Assembly (NCBI GenBank): GCA_020847545.1
Contig: JADLBV010000039.1
Span: forward strand, 1-39,332
DNA from: Phycisphaerales bacterium
GTDB lineage: Bacteria; Planctomycetota; Phycisphaerae; Tepidisphaerales; Tepidisphaeraceae
Reading direction: 5' to 3'
Length of the DNA stretch: 39,332 bases
Part shown: one piece after another, positions 5,782-11,792 of the stretch
Layout: each line of letters opens with the position of its first letter
How positions within the stretch are numbered: position 1 is the stretch's first letter
Program-made: the position numbers and the translations under genes
Notes under the pieces: generated by a model
Seen by the model: the letters and a program-made list of their open reading frames with translations, nothing else
What the model was told of the DNA's origin: nothing
Databases searched by the model: none

Positions 5782-6876
5782 ATGGCCGTTCAATCCTCCG
5801 ATTCATCCCTGTCACAAACGCCGGCGGAATCGCCGACGGTGGATGAATTGCCCCAGGAGCATGTCGAGTTGCCACGGGGTGGGTTTTGGCAGTCCCCATT
5901 TGCGCAGAATGTATTGCCATTTTTGGGGTCGCTGGCGCTGCATCTGGGGTTGATCGTGCTGGTGTGGGCGACCTATGAGGGGATCAAGGTGGCGTACCAG
6001 GTGGTGCGCGAGCAGATCATCATTCCGGATTCGACCATTGTGGAGGGGGCGCCGGTGGGCGGGGTGATGAATCCGGGGTTGGGGGAGGATCCGAATCGGT
6101 CGGCGCAGCAGGATCAATACGCCGATGTGCCGGCCGGCAGTCAGGGGTGGGCGAGCAAGCCCTCGGAGACGTTGACGAATAATTTGATGAACGAAGGGGG
6201 AAAGGATGGGAAGTCGGCCGATTCCATGATCGGACTGGGGAGCGGGGCCGGTCGGGGCAAGGGATTGGGGGATGATTCGGGGTTGGGGGGTGGGCCGGGT
6301 GCGGATGGTGGGCCGATGGCGCCGTTTGGTGTGCCGGGGGGTGGTCAGGGGCTGGGTCCAAAATCGCAGTTCATGGGGTTGTCGGGGAATGCAACCCGCA
6401 TTGCGTTTGTGTGCGATGCATCGGGGTCGATGGTGGACAAGTTTGATGCGCTGCGGATCGAGCTGCGCCGATCTGTAGAGGGATTGAAGCCGATTCAGGC
6501 GTTTGGCATCATTTTTTTCCAGGAGCAGGAGGCGGCGACGCTGGATGCCAAGCTGGTGATGGCGACGGCGGAACACAAGAAGCAGGCGTTTGAGTTTCTC
6601 GATCAGACCACACCCCACGGGGGGACCGAGCCGATCCATGGGTTGAAGATCGCGTTTGATCAGGGGCCGCAGTTGATTTATCTGCTGACCGATGGGGATT
6701 TTCCGGACAATCAGAAGGTGATCGACTATATTCGCCAGCGGAATGTCGGGGGAAAAGTGAAGATCAACACGATTGCGTTTGTGGGGCGGGGTGAGGAATA
6801 TGAAAAGGTGCTGCGGCAGATCGCAGATGAGAATCATGGGTCGTTTCGATATGTATCCGATGGGGATTTGAGATAG
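5782..6876 (+). CDS. vWA-domain protein with TonB/TolA-like membrane anchor
   Basis: This 364-residue protein has an N-terminal cytoplasmic tail, one membrane helix at about residues 45-66, a long Gly/Asp-rich linker (about 95-195), and a C-terminal von Willebrand A domain. The vWA metal site is intact: DASGSM (Asp212, Ser214, Ser216), a Thr near residue 282, and LTDGD with Asp304. The membrane helix contains Ser50-x3-His54, the same spacing as the S-x3-H motif that couples TonB and TolA to ExbBD/TolQR. The gene immediately precedes ExbB- and ExbD-like genes. I infer that this is the energised partner of that channel, acting in the periplasm with a ligand-binding vWA domain in place of the TonB C-terminal domain. 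The upstream in-frame start at 5710 falls inside the SDR gene; the ATG at 5782 has an AGG six bases upstream. Confidence 0.82.
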   Translation: MAVQSSDSSLSQTPAESPTVDELPQEHVELPRGGFWQSPFAQNVLPFLGSLALHLGLIVLVWATYEGIKVAYQVVREQIIIPDSTIVEGAPVGGVMNPGLGEDPNRSAQQDQYADVPAGSQGWASKPSETLTNNLMNEGGKDGKSADSMIGLGSGAGRGKGLGDDSGLGGGPGADGGPMAPFGVPGGGQGLGPKSQFMGLSGNATRIAFVCDASGSMVDKFDALRIELRRSVEGLKPIQAFGIIFFQEQEAATLDAKLVMATAEHKKQAFEFLDQTTPHGGTEPIHGLKIAFDQGPQLIYLLTDGDFPDNQKVIDYIRQRNVGGKVKINTIAFVGRGEEYEKVLRQIADENHGSFRYVSDGDLR

Positions 6877-6906
6877 TGCGGGGCGGGTTGTTTTGGAGTG
6901 ACATTC

Positions 6907-7815
6907 ATGCGGCGATACGCGACTTCGCGGCTGAGGATTGGCGTGCTGGTGTTTTTGCTGGCGGCGGCGTTTGTGGCCGGCGGCAGGGCGCTGGGGCAAA
7001 GCGAGGCGGCGCCCGCCCCCACCGGACCGGCCGATACGAACGGTTCGACGGCCGTGCAAACCGGCCAGGAGCTGCATCGGACCAATCCGTTTCGGCTGCT
7101 GATGCGGCAGGACACGCTGACGGATTTTGTCTTTTGGACAATCGTCATCTGCTCCGTGACCGGTGTGAGTCTGATCATCCAGGGGTTCATCAAGGTGAAA
7201 TCCGAGGCGATGATCCCGCAGGCCAGCACCAACCGGATGCGCGAACTGATCTCGCAGCGGCAGTTCAAGGAATTGCTGGATTTCACGGAGGTTGATTCGA
7301 GCTTTGTCAGCAAGGCGCTGAACCCGGCATTGAAGCGGGCGCCGAGTTTCGCGGCGATGAAGGATGCGATGGAGACGGCCGTGGCCGAACAGACGGCCGA
7401 GCAGTTTCGGCGGATCGAATATCTGAACATCATCGGCAACCTTGGGCCGCTGCTGGGGCTGCTGGGGACGGTTTTTGGGATGATCGATGCGTTTCAGTCC
7501 CTCAGCGCCGCACAGGGGAACGCATCCCCGGCGCAGTTGTCGGCCGGTATTTCGTTGGCGTTGACGCACACGATGCTGGGGCTGATGCTGGCGATTCCGT
7601 GCCTGGCGGCCTTTGGGGTGTTGCGGACGATGGTGGATCGATTGACGGTGCGGGGGGCGCTGATCGCGGAGGATCTGCTGCTGATGATCAAGCCGGCCGA
7701 GGCCCGGCCGGCCACCGCGCCGGTGGTTCCACCCCGTCCCGTGGCCAGCCCGCAGCCGGATGCGCGGCCGGCCGGTGGCGTTGTGCCGCTGGTCGATTCG
7801 GCGACACAAACCTGA
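6907..7815 (+). CDS. ExbB/TolQ/MotA-family proton channel subunit
   Basis: This 302-residue protein starts with a signal-like hydrophobic stretch (residues 10-24) ending near AGGRALGQ. It then has three membrane helices: about residues 70-92, 176-199 (containing PLLGLLGTVFGM, the family signature) and 213-240 (AGISLAL...GLMLAIP). In E. coli ExbB a glutamate sits in the third-helix ISEAL motif; here the motif reads ISLAL, so that acid is missing. The C terminus is a Pro/Ala-rich tail. It should form the pentameric motor core with the ExbD proteins encoded next. GGAG lies eight bases before the ATG at 6907; an in-frame GTG at 6898 is less likely. The gap to exbD is nine bases. Confidence 0.88.
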   Translation: MRRYATSRLRIGVLVFLLAAAFVAGGRALGQSEAAPAPTGPADTNGSTAVQTGQELHRTNPFRLLMRQDTLTDFVFWTIVICSVTGVSLIIQGFIKVKSEAMIPQASTNRMRELISQRQFKELLDFTEVDSSFVSKALNPALKRAPSFAAMKDAMETAVAEQTAEQFRRIEYLNIIGNLGPLLGLLGTVFGMIDAFQSLSAAQGNASPAQLSAGISLALTHTMLGLMLAIPCLAAFGVLRTMVDRLTVRGALIAEDLLLMIKPAEARPATAPVVPPRPVASPQPDARPAGGVVPLVDSATQT

Positions 7816-7824
7816 ATGTGAACC

Positions 7825-8310
7825 ATGCGACGACAGCCGATGCCCAACATCCGCGAGGGAGGCGTCAATGTGACGCCGTTGATCGACGTCGTCATGTGCC
7901 TGATCATCTTTTTCATGCTGGTGGCGAAGATCGGCATCACCACCGGCGCTGAACCGATGGACCTGCCCGAAACGATCCTGGGCCAGAAGATCGAGGACCT
8001 TGGCAATACGCTGACGCTCAACGTGCATCGGGGGGCGGGAAACCAACCCCTGGTGACGTATTTGCCAAAGGATGAGCGGGCCAACCGGGAGATTCCTTTG
8101 GCGCGGAACGTGGGAGGCAAGGTGCATCATCCGCTGCTGGAGGTGTTGAAGGCCGCCCGGCGGAACAACCCGCGGTTCAAGGTGATCATCCGGGCGCAGA
8201 AGGATTTGGGATATGAGTTGATTGAACCGATTTTGCAGACATGCGCGGCCGCTGATCTGAACAACATCAATTTCGCCACCGCGCAGGTGACGGAATTGCG
8301 ACAGGAATAA
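7825..8310 (+). CDS. ExbD/TolR-family protein (first copy)
   Basis: This 161-residue protein has the ExbD layout: a short cytoplasmic N terminus, one membrane helix and a periplasmic domain. The essential proton-carrying aspartate is Asp21 in VTPLIDVV. The periplasmic part ends in a DLNNINFAT segment like other ExbD/TolR proteins. It has an insertion in the middle (about residues 60-100) relative to short ExbDs. It pairs with the preceding ExbB-like channel, and its gene starts nine bases after it. A second, different ExbD follows 14 bases later, so the motor may contain an ExbD heterodimer. Confidence 0.88.
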   Translation: MRRQPMPNIREGGVNVTPLIDVVMCLIIFFMLVAKIGITTGAEPMDLPETILGQKIEDLGNTLTLNVHRGAGNQPLVTYLPKDERANREIPLARNVGGKVHHPLLEVLKAARRNNPRFKVIIRAQKDLGYELIEPILQTCAAADLNNINFATAQVTELRQE

Positions 8311-8324
8311 ACCGGACATTTGCC

Positions 8325-8786
8325 ATGCGTTTCCCCGCTTCCAGAAAAATTCATTACGATTCAGGCCCCAACCTGACGCCGCTGGTGGATGTGGTGATGG
8401 TGATCCTGATCTTTCTGATGCTGGTGGGGAGTTTTGGCGCCAGCGAGCATTTTCTGACCAGCAACCTGCCGATCAAACAGGCCGGGACGGGGCAGACGCA
8501 CCCGCCGGCGGGATGGGTGGCGGATACGGCATTGGAGATTCGGGTCGATCCGCGCGGGGCGGGGTTTGAGGCCGTGGCGGGGCGAATTCGCGTCAATGAT
8601 GCCGTGCAACTGGAGAATCAGTTAAGACAAATGCTGGAACAGTTTCGCAAGGCCGGTACGCCGCCGGAAAAGGTGCAGGTGATCATCAGCCCCGGCAAGG
8701 TGGTGCGATATGAGCATCTGATCCGGGTGTATGAATCAGCGCTGAGCGCGGGGTTTACCAAGGTGGCGTTCGCCACATCTCATTAA
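8325..8786 (+). CDS. ExbD/TolR-family protein (second copy)
   Basis: This 153-residue protein is a second ExbD-type subunit with its key aspartate at Asp22 in LTPLVDVV and a single membrane helix at about residues 20-42. The periplasmic domain ends in a SAGFTKVAFAT segment typical of the family. It is clearly diverged from the first copy, so this is not a recent duplication. ExbD works as a dimer in the ExbB pore; two unlike copies beside one channel gene suggest a heterodimer, which is an inference. A palindromic repeat block follows the stop and may terminate or process the transcript. Confidence 0.87.
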   Translation: MRFPASRKIHYDSGPNLTPLVDVVMVILIFLMLVGSFGASEHFLTSNLPIKQAGTGQTHPPAGWVADTALEIRVDPRGAGFEAVAGRIRVNDAVQLENQLRQMLEQFRKAGTPPEKVQVIISPGKVVRYEHLIRVYESALSAGFTKVAFATSH

Positions 8787-8836
8787 ATATGATGCCATGG
8801 TACACATACATCAATTTCTAGAATTGTGCTTTGGTT

Positions 8837-8934
8837 CCCTCTCCCTGTACTCAGGGAGAGGGTTAGGGAGAGGGTGTATTATCTGATGTGAGGAACCCTC
8901 TCCCCAGCCCTCTCCCTGCGTACAGGGAGAGGGA
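8837..8934. repeat. Palindromic REP/MITE-like element
   Basis: Two arms, 8837-8876 and 8895-8934, are inverted copies about 40 bases long with a few mismatches, separated by about 18 bases. Each arm itself contains a smaller hairpin (CCCTCTCCCTG...CAGGGAGAGGG). The result is a nested palindrome that would fold strongly in RNA. It sits between the second exbD gene and the TPR gene and may act as a terminator or mRNA stabiliser. The structure is that of a dispersed non-autonomous repeat. Confidence 0.7.
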
Positions 8935-8963
8935 GTAATTACGAAAGTTGTTGATCCACCTTG

Positions 8964-11792
8964 ATGAACTCGATTCGATCCTTGTTGGCAAGCGGCATCA
9001 TCGCGGCCGTCGCGATGTGTGGATTGGCGCGCGCCCAGAGCAGGCCGGCCGGATTGGATTCATTGGGTGAGGATCGGTTGTATGCGGAGTTGGCCGCCCG
9101 AAGGCTCGATTCGCTGCTGGAATTCGCATTCAAGATTGACCATGTTTCGCAGGATCAGCAGCAGGCGATCCGAACCTTGTCGGCATTGCAGGAACTGGCC
9201 GACCCGCAAAGCCGACTGACAATGCGACAACGACAGGAACTGGTGGACAAGATCGTCCGGCAGATCGACACCACGTTGCCGCAAATCAATGATCCGCAGA
9301 TGCTCTGGCGGCAGGCGACGATGCTGATCCAGAATGGCGCCGCCCGGCAGGTCAACACGCTGGAATACTGGGGTGAAAATCCGCGCGTGCAGGCTTCATT
9401 GCGGCCGATTGTCGAGGCGATCATCAAGATTCTGGACCGGTGCCAGGCATTGGCCCTGGCGCAGGCTGAACAGATCGCCGGCACGATCCGCTCACCCGAT
9501 GATCCGGCCGCCAAGCAGTATATGGTGGTGGATAACCTGGCGACCATGGCGCGATACACGCGCCTGATGGTCGATTATGACCTGGCGCTGGCGATCGATT
9601 CGGTCGCCGGTGGGGATCAACGCCGACAGATCGCGGGCAAGGCCATTCAGGGGTTAGCGGAATTCGACAACGCCGACAGTTCGGTGCAGGCGCAGGTGCG
9701 CAACCGCGTCGCCAAGCTGAAAATGGCCGCAGGGGATTTTGCAGGGGCGAGCGAGACATTCGCCGAGGTGATCGGGGGGCAGACCACCCCGCCGCCGACA
9801 TTTGCCCAGCAGTATGAAGCTCGCTATTTTTCGGCCGTCTGTCTGGTCTTGTCGGGAAAACTGGATGGGGCACAGCGTGCGCTGGCGGAATTGATCTCCT
9901 GGCAGGAACAGAACATCCCCCCCGACAACGCCTCCGCCCGCCAGGGGGCGCAGGCGGCGGCCGAGATGCTGGAATATCGGCTTCACAGCGCCCGGGCGCA
10001 ATTGGCCAAAACGCCTGCCGACCGCGCCGCCGCCGACAAACTGGCGATGGAGTCGCTGCTGAAACTGGTCAAGGAGCGGCCCGACTTGCGCGGGATTGTC
10101 TATGAACAACTGGCCGGCCGGTTGCCCGAACATCCGGACATGAAGCAGCTCGATGTGCTGCTTTTACAGGCCCTGATTCAACGGGGGAATGTCGAGCGGA
10201 TGAAGAATGAATCGGAATCGGCCGACCCACAGACTCTCCAACATGCGATTGATGCCGCACGCGAACTGGTTCGCCGACGGGGAAGCGGTGTGGATGCCCA
10301 ACTGGTGGAACAGGCCGCCCTGCTGGAGGGGTTTTTTCTGGATCGGCTCGATCGCGATGCCCAGGCGGCCGGCGCGTTTTTGGATTTTATCCGTGATTTC
10401 CCGCACAGCGCTGATTTTGACCGCGTGGCGCTGGACAACGCCCGCGCCCTGGTGGGCCAACTGATGCGCGCCAATCCATCCGACCCGACCAACCTGAAAT
10501 TGTACGAGCGGTTTTTGTCGGTGGCGGTGGGGCAATTTCAACAGGTGCAGTTCGCCTTTGAATATGGTCGGCTGTTGCAGAAGAACGGCCAATATGCGCA
10601 GGCGATCAAGACATACCAATTGGTGGCGGAGGATGATCCCCGGCTGATCCGGGCGCGTTTTTATCAGATGGTGGCGCTGAATCAGATGCTCGACGATCCG
10701 CACAACAAACCGGCCGAGACCGATCGCAAGCGGATGGTGGCGGAGATTCAACGGCTGGCAACCGTGGTCGATCAGATGGCCGCCAAAGACTCCGCTAACC
10801 CGGAATTTCGTTCACTCAAGGTCAAGACCGCCCTCTTGGCGGCCAAGATCGCCAATCGTGAACAGCACGACCCGAAGCGCGCGTTGGAACTATTGGCCGA
10901 CTTTGAACCCTCCGTGCGCGGCATGAACGATGAGACCGATTTGTTGAGCGAAGCCCTCTTTCTGCGGGTCGATTCGTACATGGACCTGGGGCAGAACGCC
11001 AAGGCGACCGATGCCCTGGTGGAACTGTTAAAGACCCGCGAAGGGGGACAGGGGGCGCGGATCATCTTCGGCCTGCTGCAAAAGCTCGACCATGATCTGG
11101 ATGAGGCCCGTCTGCGCGATGATCGCCAACAGATGCTGTTGTTGGCCCGTTCGCGGGCGACGTTGAGCGGGTATCTGGTACAATGGGCCGCCGACAACCC
11201 CGATGAGCGCATTCGTCGATTCACGTATCGTTATCGCGTGTTCGATGCGGATACCCGGCTCCTGTCGGCACAACTGGAGGAAGACCCGGCCGCGAAAAAC
11301 AAGGGATTGCATGAGGCGCTGGCCCGTTATCAGGCGTTGCAAACCCCACAAGCGGTGGGTGAATATCAAAGGATGATCGCCGGCACGGAGGTGGATGTGA
11401 ATTATCCCGACCCGGCCGTCACCCTCGGTATCGCACGGGCAGAGTTTGATCTGGGCGATTTCAGGGCCGCGCAGCCGCTGTTTGCCCGGTTGCTGGCGGA
11501 CAAGAAACTGGGGACCGAACAGAAGCTGGTCGATGGCGAACTGGAGGAGAACGAATTATTCTGGGAGTCAACGTATAAACTGCTCTTTTGCAATGTCGAA
11601 CTGGCCAAGGCCGATGCGAATGGCGCTGCCTTGCTGGATGAAACCCGCCGGGCGCTGCGGTTTTTGTACATCAAAAACGGCCCCGCCACCGGCGGCCGCA
11701 AATGGCACGCGGAATTTGAATCGCTGCGTCAGCGGATCATTCCCGATTTCAAGGTGGAGCAACTAACCCCCGCCACACAACCCGCATCATGA
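8964..11792 (+). CDS. Large secreted helical-repeat (TPR-like) protein
   Basis: This 942-residue protein begins with a signal peptide (hydrophobic core at residues 6-20, likely cleavage after ARA near residue 24). The rest is almost entirely alpha-helical, rich in Ala, Leu, Gln and Asp, with many two-helix units of the TPR/SEL1 kind, for example around residues 530-560 (FEYGRLLQKNGQYAQAIKTY) and 820-850. No catalytic motif was seen. It should be periplasmic or outer-membrane associated and act as a scaffold. Its position directly after the vWA/ExbB/ExbD genes suggests it belongs to the same machine, though the repeat element in between may separate transcription. The start is ATG 8964, after an in-frame TTG at 8961. 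Its stop overlaps the hldE start (ATGA). Confidence 0.78.
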   Translation: MNSIRSLLASGIIAAVAMCGLARAQSRPAGLDSLGEDRLYAELAARRLDSLLEFAFKIDHVSQDQQQAIRTLSALQELADPQSRLTMRQRQELVDKIVRQIDTTLPQINDPQMLWRQATMLIQNGAARQVNTLEYWGENPRVQASLRPIVEAIIKILDRCQALALAQAEQIAGTIRSPDDPAAKQYMVVDNLATMARYTRLMVDYDLALAIDSVAGGDQRRQIAGKAIQGLAEFDNADSSVQAQVRNRVAKLKMAAGDFAGASETFAEVIGGQTTPPPTFAQQYEARYFSAVCLVLSGKLDGAQRALAELISWQEQNIPPDNASARQGAQAAAEMLEYRLHSARAQLAKTPADRAAADKLAMESLLKLVKERPDLRGIVYEQLAGRLPEHPDMKQLDVLLLQALIQRGNVERMKNESESADPQTLQHAIDAARELVRRRGSGVDAQLVEQAALLEGFFLDRLDRDAQAAGAFLDFIRDFPHSADFDRVALDNARALVGQLMRANPSDPTNLKLYERFLSVAVGQFQQVQFAFEYGRLLQKNGQYAQAIKTYQLVAEDDPRLIRARFYQMVALNQMLDDPHNKPAETDRKRMVAEIQRLATVVDQMAAKDSANPEFRSLKVKTALLAAKIANREQHDPKRALELLADFEPSVRGMNDETDLLSEALFLRVDSYMDLGQNAKATDALVELLKTREGGQGARIIFGLLQKLDHDLDEARLRDDRQQMLLLARSRATLSGYLVQWAADNPDERIRRFTYRYRVFDADTRLLSAQLEEDPAAKNKGLHEALARYQALQTPQAVGEYQRMIAGTEVDVNYPDPAVTLGIARAEFDLGDFRAAQPLFARLLADKKLGTEQKLVDGELEENELFWESTYKLLFCNVELAKADANGAALLDETRRALRFLYIKNGPATGGRKWHAEFESLRQRIIPDFKVEQLTPATQPAS

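Follow-up and report, generated by a model that had tools for sequence, protein, structure and literature searches.

Which protein takes up the force of a proton-driven ExbB/ExbD motor when the gene beside the motor encodes a von Willebrand factor A (vWA) protein with a TonB-type membrane anchor? The question is raised by a stretch of 39,332 nucleotides (hereafter the window), positions 1 to 39,332 of contig JADLBV010000039.1 of a Phycisphaerales bacterium of the family Tepidisphaeraceae (GCA_020847545.1; an assembly of 3.75 Mb in 162 contigs, 95.6% complete). Five genes at window positions 5782–11792 lie on the + strand in the order vWA, ExbB/TolQ-like, ExbD1, ExbD2 and helical-repeat protein (Table 1). 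The vWA protein carries Ser50-x3-His54 in its single membrane helix, the spacing by which TonB and TolA couple to their motors; genes, order and motif had all been reported in an initial annotation made from the sequence alone, and are confirmed here by translation, Pfam searches and a structural model. The operon probably encodes a proton-driven 5:2 motor of the inner membrane, of the type known from ExbBD and TolQR, together with a dedicated vWA force transducer.

The vWA protein and its membrane anchor

The five proteins match the Pfam families VWA_3/VWA, MotA_ExbB, ExbD (twice) and TPR_19, and an NCBIfam scan of all five gives no match above cut-off; among the NCBIfam named families ExbB is closest to TolQ, at a score below the cut-off. 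ExbB combines the PF01618 match with the pore threonines that mark MotA/TolQ/ExbB proteins, and both ExbDs combine the PF02472 match with the membrane Asp of ExbD/TolR proteins. The vWA protein has an N-terminal tail, a single membrane helix (residues 39–74), a Gly-rich, low-confidence linker (residues ~78–191) and a vWA domain (residues 194–363, with the Pfam match at 206–360). Its AlphaFold2 model, built with 40 sequences, predicts one long helix holding the hydrophobic segment, an uncertain linker and a confident vWA domain, and a Foldseek search with this model returns vWA domains and I-domains. Among the named relatives in the scan, the closest is a Phycisphaerales metagenome-assembled genome (90% identity in the vWA protein).

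Ser50 and His54 are kept in 40/40 aligned relatives, in an alignment whose mean column identity is 26%. The motif lies within the hydrophobic segment in 65 of the 68 vWA open reading frames (ORFs) on the ExbB-bearing stretches of relatives but in only 1/232 control ORFs, a mechanical and uncurated set with an N-terminal hydrophobic segment. A second set, drawn from named contigs, gives 70/73 against 2/221 controls; the relatives' stretches (L036–L104) and the named contigs (L105–L183) overlap, and the two counts are not independent. In the first set the motif is missing from three copies, one cut short by the end of its contig, one of 243 aa and one of 442 aa. Beside ExbB the misses are L086, L122 and L180 (contig-end cut), L040:9158-9889 (identical to L106:9158-9889) and L098:3987-5315, and away from ExbB stretches they are L151 (cut) and L177.

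Some vWA copies depart from the common form. The ORF L040:9158-9889 (genome G004) is a third copy in tandem; it begins with a signal-like segment, lacks the Ser-x3-His helix and is apparently, from its sequence, a soluble relative of the transducer. Motor-adjacent copies on L092, L102, L063 and L071 have an altered D-x-S-x-S (e.g. DHGGN) and retain Ser-x3-His.

Linkage was followed in 61 genomes of the class (26 of the own family, source genome included, and 35 others) using locus profiles built from the window proteins in one phmmer round. In 51/61 genomes ExbB shares its stretch and strand with a Ser-x3-His vWA gene, at a distance of up to 1,500 bp in all 51 and of up to 200 bp in 29. The linkage count takes in fetched stretches only, and the ten genomes counted as not linked include three (G023, G024 and G025) whose loci fall outside the fetched set; in G024 the vWA, ExbB and ExbD matches all fall on a single contig, to judge by their search coordinates. 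The vWA gene beside ExbB in G020 is cut by a contig end. Two Ser-x3-His vWA genes share one motor stretch in 12 genomes, and G032 and G040 have one such gene on each of two stretches. Outside the own family many loci contain an extra ORF between vWA and ExbB (e.g. L059, L061, L069 and L074), mostly ~350–400 codons long and often resembling a signal sequence at its start; two of these were scanned, with a TPR match over the cut-off for L069 and below it for L061.

The motor and the proposed coupling

In cryo-electron microscopy structures of TonB-ExbBD and TolA-TolQR, as PMC12215075 describes them, the transducer's Ser and His touch two residues, a serine and a tryptophan, of the first transmembrane helix (TM1) of ExbB/TolQ, which are linked to a proline in TM3. 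In an alignment that included TolQ and ExbB of E. coli, the docking serine was found in 100/101 distinct ExbBs from vWA-bearing stretches, the two pore threonines in 101/101 and the proline in 97/101. A larger set of 107 distinct ExbBs (>150 bits; six from stretches without a vWA ORF) has the serine in 106, the threonines in 107, the proline in 103 and the tryptophan in 0. The corresponding counts for 23 further ExbB-type proteins, encoded in the same genomes on 18 stretches picked for showing another motor and not at random, are 11 (serine), 23 (threonines), 13 (proline) and 2 (tryptophan). The 13 TonB_C proteins at other motors comprise one with Ser-x3-His, one with Thr-x3-His, one with Ala-x3-His and ten with no such histidine. 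Since the docking serine is found in 100/101 ExbBs of one group and 11/23 of the other, and Ser-x3-His in only 1/13 TonB_C proteins at other motors, the serines of transducer and ExbB appear to go together, and the tryptophan appears not to be required. At its N-terminus the window ExbB has a signal-like segment before TM1 (window 6898–7200) and is longer than E. coli TolQ and ExbB.

The channel Asp is retained in 105/105 first-position, 97/99 second-position and 6/6 third-position ExbDs. In an ExbD tree the first and the later positions split with a support of 0.99, and 103/105 first-position proteins group together with two others; the misfits are L131 and L132, whose ORFs overlap. Because of this split ExbD1 and ExbD2 are read as old, separate lineages, which would suit a heterodimer within the ring.

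The helical-repeat protein at the 3′ end of the operon (943 aa if read from a TTG, 942 aa if read from the ATG that follows) begins with a hydrophobic, signal-like segment and has a TPR_19 match above cut-off, and its model is nearly all helical, with a mean pLDDT of 86.5. Foldseek returns generic solenoids only, at query TM-scores of 0.12–0.20 among the best 50 matches listed; the match at rank 31, to a chain of the periplasmic scaffold in the flagellar motor of Campylobacter, was too weak and was left unused. Sequence search finds a relative in 24/26 own-family genomes, source included, and by synteny alone the TPR solenoid is the best candidate for a partner or scaffold of the vWA protein.

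The proposed motor would contain one ExbD1 and one ExbD2 encircled by five ExbB subunits. The vWA protein would dock outside the ExbB ring in the fashion of TonB and TolA, with Ser50 and His54 touching the TM1 serine, and its flexible linker would extend into the periplasm. There the vWA domain, in place of a TonB C-terminal domain, would grip a partner, often via a metal ion, and the TPR solenoid may be that partner or a scaffold. The linker would come under tension when proton flow rotates the ExbD pair or tugs at it. The MIDAS (metal ion-dependent adhesion site) domain at the pulling end of the mechanoenzyme Mdn1 is described as forming catch bonds under load (PMC8837202), and such a domain could therefore act as a mechanical grip; Mdn1 has a metal-site domain at its pulling end as proposed here but is a eukaryotic AAA protein, and the comparison is one of analogy only.

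Several observations weigh against this arrangement. The TM1 tryptophan of the docking site is present in 0/101 ExbBs from vWA-bearing stretches, where 92 have Val, Ile or Leu, although the other motors seldom have it either (2/23). Of the SHLS motif of transducers only Ser and His are kept, with Leu at His+7 in 6/40 relatives and Ser at His+11 in 0/40. In six of the 61 genomes the fetched ExbB and the Ser-x3-His vWA gene are on different stretches. By sequence the large TPR protein is found in only 8/35 genomes outside the own family, although profiles place a distant TPR-like ORF 3′ of ExbD2 in more genomes than these, some at low scores. MIDAS domains are vWA-type domains, and the initial annotation had described the vWA domain as metal-binding: all five metal-site residues are retained in 31/40 relatives (Ser/Thr exchange allowed), as that description would have it, but the site is incomplete in the other 9/40, because of which metal binding is probably dispensable in some members. 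A separate feature is the partly conserved QIIIP stretch just past the helix: its Pro82 is found in 26/40 relatives, and its comparison with the TonB D-box (PMC10907165), the source of the analogy, is suggestive only.

Table 1. Features of the operon and of the orphan TonB-like protein. Positions without a prefix are those of the window; ExbB residue numbers were counted by hand from the translation.
Feature	Position	Strand	Details
vWA force-transducer candidate	5782..6876	+	364 aa; translation, Pfam VWA, model, Foldseek
Ser50-x3-His54, candidate motor-docking pair in membrane helix	5929..5943	+	Ser50 codon 5929-5931, His54 codon 5941-5943 (translation); invariant in 18 and 40 aligned relatives
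QIIIP, candidate D-box-like ExbD contact	6013..6027	+	vWA protein residues 78-82, past the helix; proposed by analogy
vWA metal-site (MIDAS) residue span	6415..6693	+	D212, S214, S216, Thr of GGTEP, D304
ExbB/TolQ-like motor subunit	6898..7815	+	N-terminal signal-like extension; Pfam (PF01618, 97.9 bits), NCBIfam, alignment
ExbB key residues			Ser86 (TolQ Ser28 position), Val90 (TolQ Trp32 position), Thr191, Thr225, Pro234
ExbD1/TolR-like	7840..8310	+	Membrane Asp16; PF02472, 58.1 bits
ExbD2/TolR-like	8325..8786	+	Membrane Asp22; PF02472, 64.1 bits
Secreted-looking TPR-type helical-repeat protein	8961..11792	+	942-943 aa; Pfam, model, relatives
Orphan TonB-like protein	L078:8682-9584	-	Own-genome contig C83; 300 aa, weak TonB_C/TonB_2 domain, Ser-x3-His helix

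A nested palindrome with 40-nt arms (window 8836–8934) separates exbD2 from the TPR gene, and on the same-genus contig L105 only 11 bp lie between these two ORFs. The 26-nt core of the palindrome is found at 40 genomic places, against 0 for a reversed control, and the element looks like a repeat of the REP/BIME (repetitive extragenic palindrome/bacterial interspersed mosaic element) type.

A sole motor and its possible transducers

The source genome has two MotA_ExbB matches, one to the window ExbB and the other to a MotA-like gene adjoining a MotB-like OmpA-domain gene, and two ExbD matches, both in the window operon; the window ExbBD is the only such motor found in this genome. A search of the same 95.6% complete assembly with the TonB-receptor plug PF07715 gives no match. 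The initial annotation had stated that no TonB or TolA is present. Searches of the window's contig for TonB_C and OmpA indeed find nothing (no search was aimed at the TolA and TolB families), but another contig encodes a TonB_C-like protein with an anchor of the same kind (Table 1), because of which the further claim that the vWA domain replaces TonB was too strong. The presence of this orphan corrects the statement about TonB and leaves the vWA coupling standing.

Similar orphans recur in the own family, in which there are 20 weak TonB_C matches, with Ser-x3-His in 15/15 of those fetched; genomes of the family other than the source in which such a protein with the motif was seen number 14. 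In the single-contig genome G013, more than 1 Mb separates the orphan from the motor. Thirteen of the 26 own-family genomes have exactly two ExbD matches, the same number as the operon ExbDs in each; here the match count is equated with the two ExbD ORFs of the operon, and places are known among the matches listed. No plug is detected in 10 of these 13 sole-motor genomes and a Ser-x3-His orphan TonB-like protein is present in 9. The coexistence of a sole ExbBD with such an orphan points to one motor with more than one transducer. It is quite possible, if somewhat short of an even chance, that ExbB-ExbD1-ExbD2 also drives the TonB-like protein of contig C83, and that the transducers compete for the docking site. 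The rarity of Ser-x3-His among TonB_C proteins at other motors (1/13) and the 12 genomes with two anchored vWA genes per motor stretch are both in keeping with sharing, whereas most of the assemblies are incomplete and the orphan may belong to a different motor that escaped detection. Genome G010 has a classical TonB, with Ala-x3-His, and two receptor plugs, and no second ExbBD was found in its assembly, which is 86% complete; its TonB either uses the motor without the serine or has a motor of its own in the missing part.

Taken further, the single ExbB-(ExbD1/ExbD2) motor might be the main envelope engine of Tepidisphaeraceae-type planctomycetes, a proposal that we advance tentatively and hold to be somewhat improbable in full. 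One or two anchored vWA proteins and the orphan TonB-like protein would share this motor through a common Ser-x3-His plug, the unlike ExbD pair would give the ring a built-in asymmetry, and its main work would be independent of TonB receptors, since 10/13 sole-motor genomes have no detected plug. Across the class, ExbD matches are found in 59/61 genomes and receptor plugs in 20/61, because of which receptor-driven import is unlikely to be the main task of the motor.

The same excess of ExbD over plugs would also be expected of a Tol-Pal-like machine for envelope constriction, in which the vWA protein acts as TolA and pulls on a protein of the periplasm or outer membrane, for instance an OmpA-domain lipoprotein or the TPR protein. 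This alternative is distinctly doubtful. The best named score of ExbB, below cut-off, is to TolQ and the source genome encodes two OmpA-domain proteins with lipobox-like N-termini, as judged by eye (L225:1363-2331 and L226:1447-2115, both on the - strand; candidates for a Pal-like role), whereas the window's contig has no OmpA-domain match.

It is unlikely that the vWA protein instead regulates the motor or helps to assemble it, docking on ExbB and sensing the periplasmic state while bearing no load. Such a role would accommodate anchored copies with a degraded metal site (e.g. L155:9097-10197) and the anchorless copy L040:9158-9889 beside anchored ones, but the anchor, long linker and globular end together repeat the layout of TonB and TolA, and the docking network is described as tied to Ton and Tol activity (PMC12215075).

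Although only two residues are involved, it is hardly credible that the motif arose by chance in a vWA gene with no relation to the exbB beside it, given the invariance in 40/40 relatives, the control count of 1/232 and the linkage in 51/61 genomes.

Relation to known systems and implications

The favoured reading, a vWA protein as force transducer of the ExbBD motor, is in its core idea already in print, as a hypothesis of 2025; sequence comparison supports it here, and the present analysis takes it further. Williams-Jones et al. 2025 (PMC12204202, section 8 and the legend to Fig. 4a,b) propose a family of vWA force transducers, naming Planctomycetes, in which many members have the SHLS motif and the neighbouring genes are tolQ-like, two unlike tolR-like and a TPR gene; an AF3 (AlphaFold 3) complex of transducer and motor is reported there, and the authors report no known phenotype for vWA transducers. 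The window operon has in common with that family the Ser/His helix, disordered linker, vWA domain, tolQ-like gene, two unlike tolR-like genes and TPR gene. It differs in that the vWA gene comes first, whereas in the published family it is often 3′ of the TPR gene, tolQ and the two tolR genes, and in that no other ExbBD was found in its genome, which also encodes an orphan TonB-like protein. The operon is assigned to the family on Ser-His, because SHLS is found in many but not all members and conservation in Ton is weaker at the motif's final two positions (PMC12215075).

A second vWA family in PMC12204202, whose vWA protein bears an Asp in a transpore helix, is alike in combining vWA with a TolQ-like motor but is said there to lack both the Ser/His motif and tolR genes. 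It is rejected for this locus, which has two Asp-bearing ExbDs and a Ser-His vWA helix.

With TonB-ExbB-ExbD the operon shares the motor type, the Ser-x3-His docking pair and the succession of helix, linker and globular end, but here a vWA domain (the only Pfam match of the transducer) takes the place of the TonB C-terminal domain, the two ExbDs are unlike, no receptor plug was found in the genome, and Val stands at the position of ExbB Trp38. TolA-TolQ-TolR has the docking pair in common and TolQ is nearest to ExbB by the sub-cut-off NCBIfam score, whereas the transducer matches vWA only and the window's contig has no Pal-like OmpA match.

No paper on the sole-motor situation or on an orphan TonB-like protein was found in the open-licence literature searched, and a term search in the text of a 2026 review of Ton/Tol motors (PMC12905483), which cites PMC12204202, finds neither 'vWA' nor 'von Willebrand'. 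The additions made here are the sole-motor setting, the unlinked TonB-like protein with its own Ser-x3-His, the separate ExbD lineages and the metal-site counts. As a whole, the interpretation in the initial annotation is partly supported, being plausible but not new; its central element, coupling of the vWA protein to ExbBD through Ser-x3-His, has good support in conservation, synteny and the matching serine of ExbB, with homologues that keep the pair and commonly lie next to exbB.

Because one ExbBD and no plug were found in its genome, and the docking residues are near-invariant on both partners, the locus offers a clean test case for the published vWA-transducer hypothesis. A change of the Ser or His would be expected to abolish the work of the motor, and TonB transport would be no confounder. 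Competition between transducers would likewise become testable in genomes where two anchored transducers accompany a single motor. The wide presence of this machinery in the class suggests that it serves envelope maintenance rather than nutrient import.

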